This document shows positions 19,011-59,026 of a stretch of DNA of 64,000 nucleotides, one piece after another. This DNA is from a bacterium (lineage in GTDB: Bacteria > Zhuqueibacterota > QNDG01 > JAFGCO01): NCBI GenBank assembly GCA_016932575.1, contig JAFGCO010000011.1, positions 108,372 to 172,371 of the forward strand, in the 5' to 3' direction. The notes under the pieces were generated by a model, which was not told the origin of the DNA, did no database searches, and saw only the letters and a list, made by a program, of their open reading frames with translations. Position 1 is the stretch's first letter; each line of letters opens with the position of its first letter. A program made the translations under genes and the position numbers.

Positions 19011-20618
19011 TTATTTCATCAGCATCATCTTGTTGGTGATAACTTCCGTTGCTGTTTCCAGCGTGTAGAAGTAAACACCACTGCTGAAGTTAGAACCGTC
19101 AAATGTGACGGTGTTCAAACCGGCCTGACGTACATCATTCACCAGTGTGGCAACTTCGTTGCCCAGAACATCGTACACGGTCAGTTTCACAGCACTCTTC
19201 TGAAGCAGGTTGAACTGAATCGTGGTAGACGGGTTGAAAGGATTGGGGAAGTTCTGAGCCAGAGCGAATTCATCCGGCTGTGCAATATCTTCGACCGCAT
19301 CGCCACCGACGAGCATGGCTGTTCCCATGCGGGAGGCATCGGCCCAGGTCATATTGTCACTGCCCCACCAGCGCAGCATGTCTTCGCGTTTGTCCGTTCC
19401 GTCACGGTCGTTGATCTGAATTTCGAAGCCAATTTCTGTATCCGCTTCCAGATCCATCGGCAGATCGGCTGCAGGAATCGTCAATTCACAGGTATAGCCT
19501 TCGAGGTCTTCTGCCAGCTCGCCCCAGGCAAAGACACTGTTGGGAGAGTTGTAATCGTTGACCGGATTGTCCCAGACCCAGCGCATCTGAAGGTCATTGG
19601 CATCATAAGAGGTGGCTTTTTCATTGCCGCCGTCGAAACAGAGCTCGATACTGTCGTTCTCATAGCTGTTGGCGCCGCTTGTGTCGAGAACGTCATCAAT
19701 GATTTCAAACCACAGATAGAGGGCGTCGGCATCCCAGGCGGCCCTGAATTCCATCTGAAGGTCTTCCCATTCTTCGATCTCGGTAAAGCTGCCGTCCACC
19801 TGATCGGCATTGGTATACACATAGGTGCCTGCTTCGATGACGGGAACATCCTGCCACGCAGCATCCAGCTCGCCGTCGACTTCCAGGGCTGCAGGAGCCG
19901 GTCCGATATTCAGGACATCGTCAGCTTCATAACCGATCAGCTCGGCAGTTCCGAACAAAGAAGGATCCTGCCATGCCATGTTGTCTGTACCCCACCAGCG
20001 GTACATGTGTTCGCGGCTTTCATTGTCACGGTCATTAATCTGAATCTCGAAACCGAAAACTTCACCCTCTTCGGCCACAATGCCCAGGGGGTCCAGAGGA
20101 AATGCGACTTCGAGGATCCAGCCAAAAGCATCACCGTCAATGGCTTCCCATTCGGCTGTGGCGGCTTCGGTGCCTTCTGGACAACTGTCATACAGTGAGG
20201 CGTCCGAACCATCCTGAAGCTCGATACGTGTCTGAACGTCATCGGCTCCGTAGGTGGTTTCTTTATCGTTTCCGGCATCAAAATAAATCTCGGCGCTGTC
20301 ATTCTCGTAAGAGTTGGCTGAACTTGAGCTGAGTTCATCATCCACAACTTTGATGAAAATATAAAGATTGGTGTCATCCCACAAAACACGGGATTCAACG
20401 AACAGATCAAGATAGCCATCGACTTCTATAGATTCGCCATCGAGCTTTACGCAGCGTTCGGTCGAAGCTGCCCAGTAAACAACATCCATGTCACCATCGA
20501 TAACCGGTGCAGTGGCGGCTTTGTGAACCTGCCATACATCATCTTTAACATAGGCCATCGAGGCTGCAACAAAAATAATCATTGACAAACAAATCAGTGC
20601 GGATAACACTCTTTTCAT
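19011..20618 (-). CDS. Secreted protein with two CBM9-type domains and a type IX sorting tail
   Basis: 535 aa. A signal peptide (about 1-24) is followed by two tandem CBM9/DOMON-like sandwiches (about 30-215 and 240-425). Each carries an APVIDGDMD-like opening, YIFIKVVDDEL / YLWFEIIDDVL, and SYENDS(A/I)E(I/L). Both end with RWWG and DNM. The last 85 residues are the Por-type sorting domain: FALAQNFPNPFNPSTTIQFN, then VYDVLGNEVATLV, GVYFYTLET and KMMLMK. CBM9 domains bind sugar chain ends, so this is probably a surface glycan-binding protein with no catalytic domain. A LacI-type operator and a possible leader peptide lie upstream. Confidence 0.88.
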   Translation of the reverse strand: MKRVLSALICLSMIIFVAASMAYVKDDVWQVHKAATAPVIDGDMDVVYWAASTERCVKLDGESIEVDGYLDLFVESRVLWDDTNLYIFIKVVDDELSSSSANSYENDSAEIYFDAGNDKETTYGADDVQTRIELQDGSDASLYDSCPEGTEAATAEWEAIDGDAFGWILEVAFPLDPLGIVAEEGEVFGFEIQINDRDNESREHMYRWWGTDNMAWQDPSLFGTAELIGYEADDVLNIGPAPAALEVDGELDAAWQDVPVIEAGTYVYTNADQVDGSFTEIEEWEDLQMEFRAAWDADALYLWFEIIDDVLDTSGANSYENDSIELCFDGGNEKATSYDANDLQMRWVWDNPVNDYNSPNSVFAWGELAEDLEGYTCELTIPAADLPMDLEADTEIGFEIQINDRDGTDKREDMLRWWGSDNMTWADASRMGTAMLVGGDAVEDIAQPDEFALAQNFPNPFNPSTTIQFNLLQKSAVKLTVYDVLGNEVATLVNDVRQAGLNTVTFDGSNFSSGVYFYTLETATEVITNKMMLMK

Positions 20619-20720: not shown

Positions 20721-20756
20721 TCAACCGGGTAGTTTCAAACATGTCAGCATCCTCAT
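20721..20756 (-). CDS. Possible 11-residue leader peptide upstream of the CBM9 gene
   Basis: ATG at 20756 reads MRMLTCLKLPG and stops at 20721. It is preceded by AAAGGAGGTG at 20773-20764, seven bases from the start and the closest match to a full Shine-Dalgarno that I see in the window. Downstream (about 20715-20690) a pyrimidine/purine hairpin pairs CCCTTTCTTT with GAAGGAAGGG. The layout suits a translated leader or an RNA switch, but such a short reading frame can arise by chance. Confidence 0.35.
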   Translation of the reverse strand: MRMLTCLKLPG

Positions 20757-20952
20757 GGACAGTCACCTCCTTTCAATAAGAATCACACGTGAATAATAGG
20801 GGATTTTCTGTAACATAAAAAACATCTCCCGCTCAGAAATTCTTCATTATTTCACATGAAAAATCAACCGATGAGTTAATCTGCCCTTCCCACTGAATAT
20901 TAATATTTCAACTTGATAACAATGCGATGATTCAAATTATCTGTTTTTTTAT

Positions 20953-22722: not shown

Positions 22723-24111
22723 TCAACCGGCAATCGATTCTTCCTTGCGCTTTGGTTCAATACCATACAGTTTCAATTTTCGCCAAAGGGTGGTGGTGGA
22801 AATACCCAGAATTTCAGACGCCTTCTTTTGATTCCAGACACATTTATCCAAAGTCATCAGTATATGTTTTTTCTCTAAAACTTCCAGAGTTTGTCCGCCG
22901 CCAACCAGCATTTCAGGTTCTTCGATGATCGGCTGCTGTTCATTGCTTAAAATACTGCTGGGCAGATCTTCGGGTAAAATCACATTTTTAGAAGCTAAAA
23001 TTAAAGCCCGCTCAATAACATTTTCCAGCTCGCGCACATTGCCTGGCCAATCGTATTGCATTAAGCACTTCATGGCCTCTGGAGAAATTGACGGATTGCT
23101 CTTCTTGGTACGTTCCTGATATGTTTTTAAAAAATGATCGGCCAATAAAGGAATATCATCCCTTCGGTCCCGTAATGGAGGAAGATCAATAGGAATCACA
23201 TTCAAACGATAATAAAGATCTTCACGAAATCTGCCTTCCTCTATGAGTTTCTTAAGATCCTGATTGGTCGCAGCGATCAACCGGACATCAACATACAACG
23301 GCTCATTTTCACCAACCCGTCGAATTTCACCATCCTGAAGAAAACGAAGCAATTTTACTTGTGTTGAAAGGGCCGTCTCTCCAATTTCATCTAAAAACAG
23401 TGTGCCGCCATTGGCTTCCTGAAACAGGCCGCGCTTATCTTTGATGGCGCCTGTAAAAGCACCCCGGACATGACCGAATAATTCACTTTCCTGAAGATTC
23501 TCCGGCAATGCTCCGCAATTAATTGTGATAAACGCCCGGTTCTTTCGCCGGCTATTCAAATGGGTAGCCTTGGCAATCAGCTCTTTTCCTGTGCCGCTGT
23601 CTCCAGAAATAAGTACCGTGCTATCGGTTTTCGCAACTTTCGAAACCAGTGCAAGTACCTCCATCATACGATTTGAATTGCCAATAATATTCTCAAACCG
23701 ATATTTTTCCCGAAGCTCATCCTGAAGTTGTTCTACTTCATTGATCAATTCCCGGCGCTCGATTGCTTTCTTGACCAAAATTAAAAACTCATCTTTGTCA
23801 AATGGCTTCTGAATATAATCATATGCACCCAGCTTCATAGCCTCAACACCGCTCTCGACAGTACTGAATGCCGTCATGACCATGACTTCAGTTGTATCGT
23901 AAGCACTTTTGACTTTGCGTAAAACTTCCATCCCATCGATCGGTTCCATTTTTAAATCGGTAATAACCAGATCAAAAAACTTATTTTTCAGTATTTCCAG
24001 AGCCTTTTCACCATTCATTGCTTCTTCTACCTGATACCCAACTCGCTTCAGCATAAGAGACAGGGTTGTACGCACTGATTTTTCATCATCAACGAGTAAT
24101 ATATCTGTCAT
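22723..24111 (-). CDS. NtrC-family sigma-54-dependent response regulator
   Basis: 462 aa, a full three-domain activator. Receiver (1-120) with Asp 52 in VITDLKMEP and Lys 102. AAA+ domain (about 138-370) with Walker A GDSGTGKE (170-177), the sigma-54-contacting loop GAFTGA (218-223) and Walker B LFLDEIGE (238-245). A Fis-type HTH at the C-terminus (QKKASEILGISTTTLWRKLK). It is expected to remodel RNA polymerase with sigma-54 at enhancer-dependent promoters. It starts 35 bp downstream of the histidine kinase at 24147, its likely partner. Candidate targets in the window are the promoters at 22539 and 58164. Confidence 0.96.
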   Translation of the reverse strand: MTDILLVDDEKSVRTTLSLMLKRVGYQVEEAMNGEKALEILKNKFFDLVITDLKMEPIDGMEVLRKVKSAYDTTEVMVMTAFSTVESGVEAMKLGAYDYIQKPFDKDEFLILVKKAIERRELINEVEQLQDELREKYRFENIIGNSNRMMEVLALVSKVAKTDSTVLISGDSGTGKELIAKATHLNSRRKNRAFITINCGALPENLQESELFGHVRGAFTGAIKDKRGLFQEANGGTLFLDEIGETALSTQVKLLRFLQDGEIRRVGENEPLYVDVRLIAATNQDLKKLIEEGRFREDLYYRLNVIPIDLPPLRDRRDDIPLLADHFLKTYQERTKKSNPSISPEAMKCLMQYDWPGNVRELENVIERALILASKNVILPEDLPSSILSNEQQPIIEEPEMLVGGGQTLEVLEKKHILMTLDKCVWNQKKASEILGISTTTLWRKLKLYGIEPKRKEESIAG

Positions 24112-55229: not shown

Positions 55230-57956
55230 TTATTCATTCAATACGGCCAGATTCGCTTTCAGCTTCTCCAGCTTTTGCTGTGTGTCTTTCTCTTTCTGCT
55301 TCTCTCTTTCAACCACTGACCCAGGCGCGCGTCCGATAAAATTTTTATTTTTTAATTTTGCCGAGATGCCTTTTAGCAATCCTTCCAGACGCAGGATTTC
55401 CTTTTGAATACGGTCTTTTTCTTTATCGATATCAATCAATCCGCCTAAGGGAATAAATAACTCCAGATTTTTCACCACACTGGCCGCGGCTGATTCGGGA
55501 CGCTGAAGTCCGGCACCGGTTTCAAGATGATCCACATTTGCCAGCCGACGGATATGAAGTGCGTACTGATCGACAGATTTAATAGCCTCTGCATCCCCAC
55601 GTATAAAAAGGCTGGCTTTTTTATCCTGAGGCACATTCATTTCTCCGCGGATATTTCGAACTGAAGTAATCACCTGCTGCAAAAGCTCCATTGATATTTC
55701 TGCATCATCATCCACAAATCCGGATTCGAAAACAGGATATTGCTGCGTCATAATTGTTTTCATTCCTTCGGAATTTTCAGATGAATGCAGTGCCTGCCAG
55801 ACCTCTTCTGTAATAAATGGAATAAATGGATGAAGCAGGCGCAGAATCCGCTCCAGAGTATACAATACGACAGACTGTGCTTTCTTTCTGACTTCTGACT
55901 GATTCCGGACATATAACCGCGGTTTAATCAATTCCAGATACCAGTCACAAAATTCTCCCCAGACAAATCCATGAATTGTATGCGCTGCCTCATTGAACCT
56001 GAATTGTTCCAAATCCTGATGAACTTGCCTGATGCTTTTTTGAAGCCTGCTCAGTATCCAGCGATCAGTGATGTCCAGAGAAGTAAAATGCAAGTCATGG
56101 TTATGAGGCAGTTTGTCTGTCTCATCCAGATTCATCAGAACAAAACGGGAAGCATTCCATAATTTATTGCAAAACTTCTGTCCCATCTCAACAAGTGTAT
56201 GATCAAAATGAACATCTCCGCCGAGAGGCGTCAAATAAACCATGGTCAATCGGATCGCGTCCGCGCCATAAGCAGGCACGCCTTTTTTATATGATGGATT
56301 TTTTTTTGCAAACTCCTTTACGATTTCGGAGTCAGCCCCCTGAATCAGCCAGAGCGGATCCGGTGAATTTCCAAGCGATTTAGACATTTTCCGGCCGGAT
56401 AAATCCCGAATCATCCCATTGAAATATACATCAGTAAACGGCACATCACCCATAAATTCCAAAGAGGCCATAATCATACGTGCCACCCAAAAAAAGATAA
56501 TATCCGGTCCTGTGGCCAGCGTATTGGTGGGGAAAAACTTGCATAGTTCCGGCTCTTCCTCAGGCCAGCCCAATGTACTGAATGGCCACAACCAGGATGA
56601 GAACCAGGTATCCAGCACATCCGGATCTTGTGTTAATTTTGTACTGCCGCACTCTGAACAAACCGTCGGGATTTTACGGGATACATTAAGATGACCATTG
56701 TCACAGGTCCATACCGGAATCCGGTGTCCCCACCAGATCTGACGACTGATGCACCAGTCCCTGATATTCTCCATCCAATGAAAATAAGTGTCTTCCCAAT
56801 GTTTGGGATAAAATTTAATTTTGCCCTCTTTCACAGCATGAACAGCAGGTTCGGCCAACGGTTTCATTTTCACAAACCACTGGTCGGACAAATAGGGTTC
56901 AACAACAGTATCACATCGATAGCAGTGGGGCACCGGTGTCAGACGGGGCTCTTCTCCCGCTAAAAAATCCGATTTTGCCAGATCATTGAGTACTTGCTTT
57001 CTTGCTTCAAACCTGTCCAGTCCCTTGTAGGGACCTGCCTGATCATTCATCACACCCGCTTCATCCATGATTTGTATTTGTTCCAGATGGTGACGTTCTC
57101 CCACTTCAAAATCATCAAAATCATGAGCGGGCGTGATCTTGACGGCACCGCTCCCCTTTTCCGGATCCGCATGCTCATCGGCAATAACCGGAATCTCGCG
57201 GTTCATCAATGGCAGGATTACGGTTTGTCCAATAAGCTTCTTATACCGTTCATCTTCCGGATGAACCGCAACGGCTGTATCACCCAGCATGGTTTCAGGA
57301 CGGGTTGTTGAAACAATGATAACCTCCCCTGAATTCTTCACTGGATATTTGATATGCCAGAATTTTCCATTGATATCCCTGCTCGGTGCCTCCTCATCTG
57401 CCAGGGCCGTATGACATCTCGGGCACCAGTTAATTAATCGCCGTCCTCTATAAATATATCCTTTTTCATAAAGACGAATAAATACTTCTTTCACTGCATT
57501 ACTGAGGCCTGAATCCATCGTAAATCGCTCACGTTCCCAATCACAGGCAGCCCCCAGTTTTCTGAGCTGCTGAAGGATAATGCCGCCAAATTTTTCTTTC
57601 CATTGCCAGACGCGTTCGATTAATTTTTCCCTGCCAAGATCGTAACGGGTCAATCCTTCCTCACGCAATGCGGCCTCGACTTTATTCTGTGTGGCGATAC
57701 CTGCATGATCGGTTCCGGGCATCCATAGCGTTTCACAGCCCTCCATTTTTTTCCATCGAATAAGTAAATCCTGGATTGTATTATTAAGAATATGCCCCAT
57801 CGTCAGCATGCCTGTGACATTGGGAGGCGGAATCATGATGGTATATTTCGGTTTCTCTGAATCAGGATCGGCATGAAATAATCGGTTCTTCATCCAATAA
57901 TCATACCATTTATTTTCAACTTGAGCAGGATGATACACTTTATCCAGCGTTTTCAT
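55230..57956 (-). CDS. valS: Valyl-tRNA synthetase
   Basis: 908 aa from ATG 57956 (GGAG upstream); an ATG at 58031 adds 25 unusual residues and is rejected. Class I synthetase: VTGMLTMGHILNNTIQD carries the HIGH-equivalent, GRKMSKSLGNSPDP the KMSKS loop. The editing (CP1) domain is the region with VSTTRPETMLGDTAVAVHPE. The C-terminal coiled coil (GGLIDIDKEKDRIQKEILRL) binds tRNA. Charges tRNA-Val and edits threonine. The upstream region lacks a T-box-like leader. Confidence 0.97.
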   Translation of the reverse strand: MKTLDKVYHPAQVENKWYDYWMKNRLFHADPDSEKPKYTIMIPPPNVTGMLTMGHILNNTIQDLLIRWKKMEGCETLWMPGTDHAGIATQNKVEAALREEGLTRYDLGREKLIERVWQWKEKFGGIILQQLRKLGAACDWERERFTMDSGLSNAVKEVFIRLYEKGYIYRGRRLINWCPRCHTALADEEAPSRDINGKFWHIKYPVKNSGEVIIVSTTRPETMLGDTAVAVHPEDERYKKLIGQTVILPLMNREIPVIADEHADPEKGSGAVKITPAHDFDDFEVGERHHLEQIQIMDEAGVMNDQAGPYKGLDRFEARKQVLNDLAKSDFLAGEEPRLTPVPHCYRCDTVVEPYLSDQWFVKMKPLAEPAVHAVKEGKIKFYPKHWEDTYFHWMENIRDWCISRQIWWGHRIPVWTCDNGHLNVSRKIPTVCSECGSTKLTQDPDVLDTWFSSWLWPFSTLGWPEEEPELCKFFPTNTLATGPDIIFFWVARMIMASLEFMGDVPFTDVYFNGMIRDLSGRKMSKSLGNSPDPLWLIQGADSEIVKEFAKKNPSYKKGVPAYGADAIRLTMVYLTPLGGDVHFDHTLVEMGQKFCNKLWNASRFVLMNLDETDKLPHNHDLHFTSLDITDRWILSRLQKSIRQVHQDLEQFRFNEAAHTIHGFVWGEFCDWYLELIKPRLYVRNQSEVRKKAQSVVLYTLERILRLLHPFIPFITEEVWQALHSSENSEGMKTIMTQQYPVFESGFVDDDAEISMELLQQVITSVRNIRGEMNVPQDKKASLFIRGDAEAIKSVDQYALHIRRLANVDHLETGAGLQRPESAAASVVKNLELFIPLGGLIDIDKEKDRIQKEILRLEGLLKGISAKLKNKNFIGRAPGSVVEREKQKEKDTQQKLEKLKANLAVLNE

Positions 57957-58053: not shown

Positions 58054-58083
58054 AACAAAATGAAATAATTATTTCATTTCGTT
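58054..58083. promoter_or_regulatory. 30-bp dyad, possible activator-binding site for the sigma-54 promoter
   Basis: AACAAAATGAAATAA and TTATTTCATTTCGTT form 15-bp arms with one mismatch. The centre lies about 120 bp upstream of the inferred start of the small RNA at 58190, a normal place for an enhancer-binding site. It could instead be an operator for valS, whose start is about 100 bp away on the other strand. Confidence 0.5.
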
Positions 58084-58163
58084 AACATTTGTAAAATGAT
58101 TGTGAATCAGTGGGCGGTTATAAGAATTTATTATTATGGGAGTTATGATATTTTTTAAAAAAT

Positions 58164-58178
58164 TGGCACAATATCTGC
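58164..58178 (+). promoter_or_regulatory. Sigma-54 promoter of the predicted small RNA
   Basis: TGGCACAATATCTGC has GG at 58165-58166 and GC at 58177-58178, so the exact GG-N10-GC spacing, with TGGCAC-N5-CTGC one base off the consensus TGGCAC-N5-TTGC. It predicts a start near 58190. Confidence 0.55.
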
Positions 58179-58189
58179 ATTTTCATCAG

Positions 58190-58269
58190 TCAGGAAAGCA
58201 TAACCTCCTTTCCTCAATTTAACCCCTTGTGATCGGGTCCGTGTCCCCCCGCACGGACCCATTTTTTTT
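58190..58269 (+). ncRNA. Predicted C-rich small RNA, about 80 nt
   Basis: From the inferred sigma-54 start at about 58190 to the terminator. Hairpin 1 pairs AGGAAAG (58192-58198) with CTTTCCT (58208-58214) around the loop CATAACCTC. A single-stranded AACCCCTTGTG follows. Hairpin 2 is the terminator stem with a TCCCCCCG loop. ACCTCCTTTC is the exact complement of a Shine-Dalgarno GAAAGGAGGT, as found before the leader ORF at 20756. No coding potential was seen on either strand. It is predicted only, with no known family match. Confidence 0.42.
58235..58269 (+). terminator. Strong rho-independent terminator of the predicted small RNA
   Basis: GGGTCCGTG (58235-58243) pairs perfectly with CACGGACCC (58252-58260), with loop TCCCCCCG, followed by A and eight T. 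No protein gene lies upstream on this strand for at least 6 kb, which argues that it ends an RNA gene. Confidence 0.8.
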
Positions 58270-58312
58270 AAAATCAGAGACCGTTATCCGATCTTAAATT
58301 CATTCCATTTTT

Positions 58313-58434
58313 GAGACTGTTGAAAAATCATTCTAAACATTATTCTTAGCCTCCCGGAGGTTGAATATTTCCAATAGGCAATTTTGCTTATATAACCTCC
58401 AGGAGGCTAAATTTACAACTTTTTCGACAGTCTC
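58313..58434. mobile_element. MITE-like 122-bp element with imperfect terminal inverted repeats
   Basis: The ends GAGACTGTTGAAAAA and TTTTTCGACAGTCTC are inverted and near-identical. Inside, AGCCTCCCGGAGGTT is mirrored by AACCTCCAGGAGGCT. It has no coding capacity. The end sequence recurs in part at 62840-62854 (GAGACTGTCAAAAAA). It resembles a non-autonomous insertion-sequence derivative; no target duplication could be confirmed by eye. Confidence 0.6.
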
Positions 58435-58442
58435 GTTATGTT

Positions 58443-58717: not shown

Positions 58718-59026
58718 TCAAATCGCTTCTGAATATACTTTAACTTCGTCTTCAAGTTTATCACCCAATTTATCTAACTCCACTTCTAAATCGTAATGTG
58801 ATTGCAGATTAGTCCAAAATTGCGGTGAAATATTGAAGAAGCGACCTAGTCTTAAAGCCGTATCCGCACTGAAAGATCGTTTACAGTGTACTATCTCATT
58901 TATACGTCGAGGGGGAACATTTATATCTTTTGATAATCTGTATTGTGAGATCCCCATCGCATCCAGAAATTCTTCCTTTAATATTTCCCCGGGGTGTATG
59001 GGTGGTATCTTATTTTCTTTAATCAT
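58718..59026 (-). CDS. higA: HigA-family antitoxin (XRE-type HTH)
   Basis: 102 aa. IPPIHPGEILKEEFLDAMGI is the classic HigA opening, followed by the helix-turn-helix (SQYRLSKDINVPPRRINEIV) and DTALRLGRFFNISPQFWTNLQ. HigA binds the HigB mRNA interferase and represses its own operon. Immediately upstream only the last 14 codons of higB remain (see 59027-59071), so this antitoxin is probably an orphan. The last 25 residues (ELDKLGDKLEDEVKVYSEAI) are charged. Confidence 0.92.
   Translation of the reverse strand: MIKENKIPPIHPGEILKEEFLDAMGISQYRLSKDINVPPRRINEIVHCKRSFSADTALRLGRFFNISPQFWTNLQSHYDLEVELDKLGDKLEDEVKVYSEAI

Follow-up and report, generated by a model that had tools for sequence, protein, structure and literature searches.

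Does the DNA at positions 58054-58269 of the window, the 64-kb stretch analysed here (source genome 4.4 Mb, 72 contigs), carry a free-standing gene for a small regulatory RNA (sRNA), and on what would such an RNA act? The locus had earlier been read as a sigma-54-driven, activator-controlled sRNA with anti-Shine-Dalgarno (anti-SD) segments that blocks translation broadly (the original prediction). We compared twelve genomes of the same order, labelled G000 (the genome of the window) to G011; coordinates refer to the window unless a genome label is given. The locus is a member of a new lineage-specific family of predicted sRNAs, and its reading as a sigma-54-driven sRNA is well supported by sequence comparison. 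Our preferred interpretation, to which we assign a probability of about 0.68, is a trans-acting regulatory RNA gene standing on its own, transcribed from a sigma-54 promoter, whose product would pair with the SD regions of mRNAs.

Promoter, fold and terminator of the predicted sRNA gene

The elements of the locus and its divergent neighbour are arranged as follows.

58054..58083: putative upstream activator site, an inverted repeat with TGAAAT-N4-ATTTCA at 58061-58076; the -24 element follows after 87 bp
58164..58178, plus strand: sigma-54 -24/-12 promoter TGGCACAATATCTGC; TGGCA[CT]-N6-TGC is invariant in 9/9 homologous genes
58190..58269, plus strand: predicted sRNA gene, about 80 nt, its 5' end placed 12 nt past the GC of the -12 element
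58192..58214, plus strand: hairpin 1; ACCUC(C) falls in the loop and next to it; ACCUCCUUUC at 58203-58212 is the 16S 3' tail sequence
58221..58228, plus strand: single-stranded C-rich linker AACCCCUU (AACCCCTT as DNA), the likely seed; unpaired probability 0.97
58235..58269, plus strand: intrinsic terminator GGGUCCGUG...CACGGACCC + U8 (GGGTCCGTG...CACGGACCC then T8 as DNA), a perfect, covarying stem
55230..57956, minus strand: valS, divergent neighbour in conserved synteny, outside the sRNA (Pfam PF00133, PF08264, PF10458)

The promoter is a textbook -24/-12 element, TGGCAC-N6-TGC, with GG and GC at the fixed 10-bp spacing, and this spacing is retained in all nine sRNA genes described below. 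The original prediction had named the presence of rpoN as a check; the gene was found at G000:C7:28445 (PF04552, E 1.4e-60), and Sigma54_activat (PF00158) matched 20 times in the same genome, once inside the window, in an NtrC-type protein at 22723-24111. The predicted sigma-54 promoter is thus supported by an element that does not vary among the nine homologues, by rpoN and by some 20 activator proteins. Over 464 kb of this genome, a strong terminator behind a sigma-54-like site was seen only at the present locus, apart from one other, weak candidate. This uniqueness, together with a reversed control pattern that matched in none of the twelve genomes, argues that the arrangement of promoter and terminator did not arise by chance.

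The stretch at ~58189-58269 folds at -26 kcal/mol (z = -5.0), and none of 200 shuffles folded as well. The order of sigma-54 box, about 12 nt, hairpin 1, C-rich linker and terminator is common to all nine genes, and no open reading frame (ORF) of more than one codon was found in any of them; a peptide-coding RNA was rejected on this ground. The ~80-nt non-coding stretch with two hairpins and a perfect terminator, as originally described, is present in the sequence. Its terminator stem of 9 bp is paired in 95.8% of cells, with 4 of the 9 pairs changed on both sides, and its covariation score exceeded those of all 500 shuffles and of all slid controls; GUCCG/CGGAC is retained in this stem in the eight closer copies. 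The stem of hairpin 1 is present in 8/9 homologues (mean z -2.45 against shuffles; the exception is G006).

Between the two hairpins, the linker reads (U/A)ACCCCU in seven of the nine genes, AUCCCUU in G002 and AACCCAA in the second G002 copy. Across homologues it is unpaired with a probability of 0.65-0.99, compared with 0.44-0.79 for the loop segment of hairpin 1. The linker is the best-kept single-stranded element of the RNA and is kept better than the loop.

Distribution of the family

Nine sRNA genes were identified in eight of the twelve genomes, across six families. A DNA search of 99 relatives returned one homologous match, in G002, which belongs to another family of the same order. 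It covered the RNA itself; the conserved promoter in front of it was found afterwards, and this locus, too, is divergent from valS. The remaining matches were short, AT-rich and not homologous. A pattern search combining the sigma-54 box with ACCTCCTTTC, controlled by the reversed pattern, matched once each in six of the twelve genomes. Five of these six matches are true homologues beside valS, and the sixth, in G011, was dismissed as chance, having neither terminator nor valS context. Pattern matches in G009:C65, G052, G020 and G028 were treated as chance as well. The genes of G001 and G005 were added by inspecting the regions upstream of valS, bringing the number of sRNA genes located upstream of and divergent from valS to seven (distances of 207-636 bp).

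A covariance model (R1) was built from seven sequences of the RNA alone, with the promoter excluded. Its matches came from eight of the order's genomes, the best of them with E 1.6e-18. R1 recovered a gene in G009 (E 1.7e-7), which adjoins pyrR (named by sight) and not valS, and a second, diverged gene in G002 (E 9e-4; G002:C97:26189-26265, minus strand, L282), away from valS. In both, TGGCAT-N6-TGC stands as far from the RNA as in the other copies and, because R1 contained no promoter, this element provides an independent test of the sigma-54 assignment.

R1 matches at E ~1e-3 in G057, G035 and G077, which have an almost identical 80-nt element in common, were rejected for want of a sigma-54 box, as were those in G283 and G191. 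A near-identical 80-nt hairpin-plus-terminator (GGAGATCACCTCTCC...GCCCTCGACGAATGA) with differing flanks was noted in three genomes of one genus (L178, L179 and L180, each at ~1501-1580), possibly another sRNA or a mobile terminator. No credible copy of the sRNA was found in the remaining phylum or in ~300 genomes beyond it, under strict filters that weak copies may escape.

A putative upstream activator site

The original prediction also placed an activator site upstream of the promoter. The dyad at 58054-58083, AACAAAATGAAATAA/TTATTTCATTTCGTT, matches over 14 of 15 bp with zero spacer. Its 16-bp core, TGAAAT-N4-ATTTCA, was located 17 times across the twelve genomes. Of the 16 sites examined, only two are accompanied by a sigma-54 element no more than 250 bp away, and both are at the sRNA (87 bp away in the window, 96 bp in G003). 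TGAAAT half-sites at -170 to -50 of the nine promoters numbered 13 against 3.8 expected, a count that none of 2000 shuffles reached; upstream of the sigma-54 box of the second G002 gene, three TGAAAT repeats lie exactly 15 bp apart. On the other side, an exact dyad is confined to two of the nine promoters, and three have no TGAAAT half-site at all. Since the motif was, moreover, chosen after the window copy had been seen, the enrichment is suggestive, and we regard the TGAAAT region as a putative upstream activator site.

Proposed anti-Shine-Dalgarno pairing and candidate targets

In the mechanism that we propose, an NtrC-type activator on the TGAAAT sites ~90-100 bp upstream would open the RpoN promoter, a step in which the promoter is highly probable and the activator site somewhat favoured. 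Transcription would, again very probably, give an untranslated RNA of ~80 nt ending at its own terminator. Both of its unpaired stretches rich in pyrimidine or C, namely the hairpin 1 loop and the linker that precedes the terminator, would then pair with purine-rich SD regions and lower the translation of a set of mRNAs, which we think rather more plausible than not. The linker ACCCCU(U) would be the likelier common seed, with the loop adding affinity where it matches the 16S tail. Such an sRNA would act free of Hfq: a search for Hfq (PF17209) gave no match in any of the twelve genomes but did score in the positive control genomes.

In a relative, the 16S rRNA ends in the tail ACCTCCTTTCT / GGATCACCTCCTTTCTAAGG. 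Five of the nine genes therefore have a loop sequence, ACCUCCUUUC(U), identical to the anti-SD tail, and in as many the loop motif ACCUCC is exact. Using 267 crude gene calls from a 464-kb sample and a cut-off of -8 kcal/mol, we found the loop segment to pair below the cut-off with 147 start regions versus 47 gene interiors. These figures describe a pairing potential and not a set of targets, because start codons were called partly by SD strength, which favours the loop segment.

Several results weigh against this interpretation. The loop is altered in G001 (ACCCCC), G005 (ACCUUC), G009 (ACUUUU) and the second G002 copy (GUCCUU); with four of nine genes changed, SD blocking by the loop is not conserved family-wide. 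The CCCCCC loop of the terminator shows no conservation among homologues, the linker prefers start regions only weakly (85 versus 60 interiors of 267), no mRNA target is backed by conservation, and the sRNA was not found in four of the twelve genomes (G004, G007, G010 and G011). Of the conservation of promoter and loops that the original prediction had asked about, the promoter part holds in 9/9 genes, and the ACCUCC loop is exact in 5/9. A broad anti-SD function is plausible, but it is not a feature conserved across the whole family, in which the loop drifts and the linker is better kept.

The original prediction further singled out a site before a leader ORF at 20756. An exact 10-nt complement, GAAAGGAGGT, does lie at 20765-20774 (minus strand), before the 11-codon ORF MRMLTCLKLPG. 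It says little about specificity, as any perfect SD site matches a copy of the 16S tail; since the complementarity is not extended beyond the SD, we do not retain 20756 as a specific target. In its own right, the region 20723-20774 (minus strand) combines this perfect SD with MRMLTCLKLPG, possibly a leader peptide; a secreted-protein-like gene (19011-20618) follows after ~100 bp.

Alternative explanations

A conserved sigma-54-driven RNA could instead act as a decoy for a protein that binds C-rich single strands, as CrcZ does on Hfq/Crc, without pairing to mRNA. The occurrence of C-rich motifs twice per RNA, in loop and linker, would suit such a role, and a loop that drifts yet stays pyrimidine-rich would fit a protein that reads composition. 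However, Hfq went undetected in the twelve genomes, the RNA offers two short motifs and no long array, and the 16S-tail identity in 5/9 genes favours mRNA pairing; we consider a decoy unlikely. Slightly less probable still is a more far-reaching form of anti-SD action, in which the RNA would be an Hfq-free, sigma-54-switched mimic of the 16S tail, its 10-11-nt anti-SD copy serving as a global translation dial that competes with ribosomes for mRNAs with strong SD sites.

The locus might also produce a short terminated transcript without function in trans, with its transcription or the bound activator modulating the divergent valS promoter. Seven genomes conserve the divergent arrangement and have the intergenic region in common, but the transcribed part retains the blocks ACC..CUUU, ACCCCU and GUCCG/CGGAC amid diverged intergenic DNA and two copies lie away from valS, which makes this improbable. 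We rejected, as very improbable, a minus-strand leader of valS in which GGAAAGGAGGTTATG would be an SD plus start codon: the block does lie upstream of valS and its minus strand carries AAAGGAGGTTATG, but the start codon is missing in relatives, the distance to valS varies over several hundred bp, the G009 copy (beside pyrR) and the second G002 copy are not next to valS, and both the sigma-54 element and the U-run terminator are on the plus strand. That a chance sigma-54-like sequence, of a kind that does arise elsewhere in the genome, merely precedes an ordinary terminator is hardly credible, being already contradicted by homologues across six families with a covarying stem and by the recovery of the promoter behind a promoter-free model.

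Comparison with known sRNAs

No Rfam 15 model (Qrr, alpha-r14, CrcZ and others) reached its gathering score, either in the window or at the loci from the seven further genomes; at relaxed thresholds, only sub-threshold miRNA/snoRNA and streptococcal models matched simple hairpins, and these were discarded. By the tests available, the sRNA is not a member of the NmsR, NfeR1/alpha-r14, CJnc230 or Qrr families. Qrr sRNAs depend on Hfq and have four stem-loops. They are unrelated in sequence to the RNA described here, and their Rfam models found no match. The likeness is one of design, with sRNA genes that stand alone and are controlled by sigma-54 together with an NtrC-family activator, LuxO in Vibrio (PMC8043402, PMC11407668).

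The sibling sRNAs NmsRA and NmsRB of Neisseria meningitidis have three stem-loops and pair at the SD of mRNAs (PMC5362039). They resemble the present family in where their anti-SD motifs lie, one in a loop and one in the UC-rich single strand that joins stem-loops, and in forming sibling copies, as in G002; they differ in their putative -35/-10 promoters, in place of sigma-54, and in the number of stem-loops (PMC5362039). An Rfam-level relation is lacking as well. Rhizobial NfeR1/alpha-r14 is Hfq-independent, as the present RNA would be, with an unpaired anti-SD motif CCUCCUCCC and a regulatory tie to NtrBC, but it is 123 nt long with three hairpins, comes from another phylum and has an ultraconserved motif, whereas the loop motif here drifts (PMC10746234). 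CJnc230 (FlmE) of Campylobacter jejuni is RpoN-dependent and exposes a single-stranded anti-SD CCUU between two stem-loops; the sRNA described here differs in having its own sigma-54 promoter (PMC11187230).

Neighbouring elements

Just downstream of the sRNA, 58312-58436 is an element resembling a miniature inverted-repeat transposable element. Its terminal inverted repeats, GAGACTGTTGAAAAA/TTTTTCGACAGTCTC, enclose a further, long inverted repeat, TTAGCCTCCCGGAGGTT / AACCTCCAGGAGGCTAA, and the loci compared did not contain the element a second time. Further on, 58718-59026 (minus strand) encodes a Cro/C1-type helix-turn-helix protein (PF01381), a HigA-like antitoxin candidate beside which no toxin was identified.

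Implications for the lineage

A literature search found no sRNA work for this uncultured lineage, probably KSB1, and the family, with a predicted sigma-54 promoter of its own, is apparently undescribed. The covariance model, the promoter motif and the candidate activator site make its regulon searchable in metatranscriptomes. If our interpretation is right, the lineage would join a recurring design in which activator-controlled RNAs expose C-rich single strands, here without the usual chaperone.
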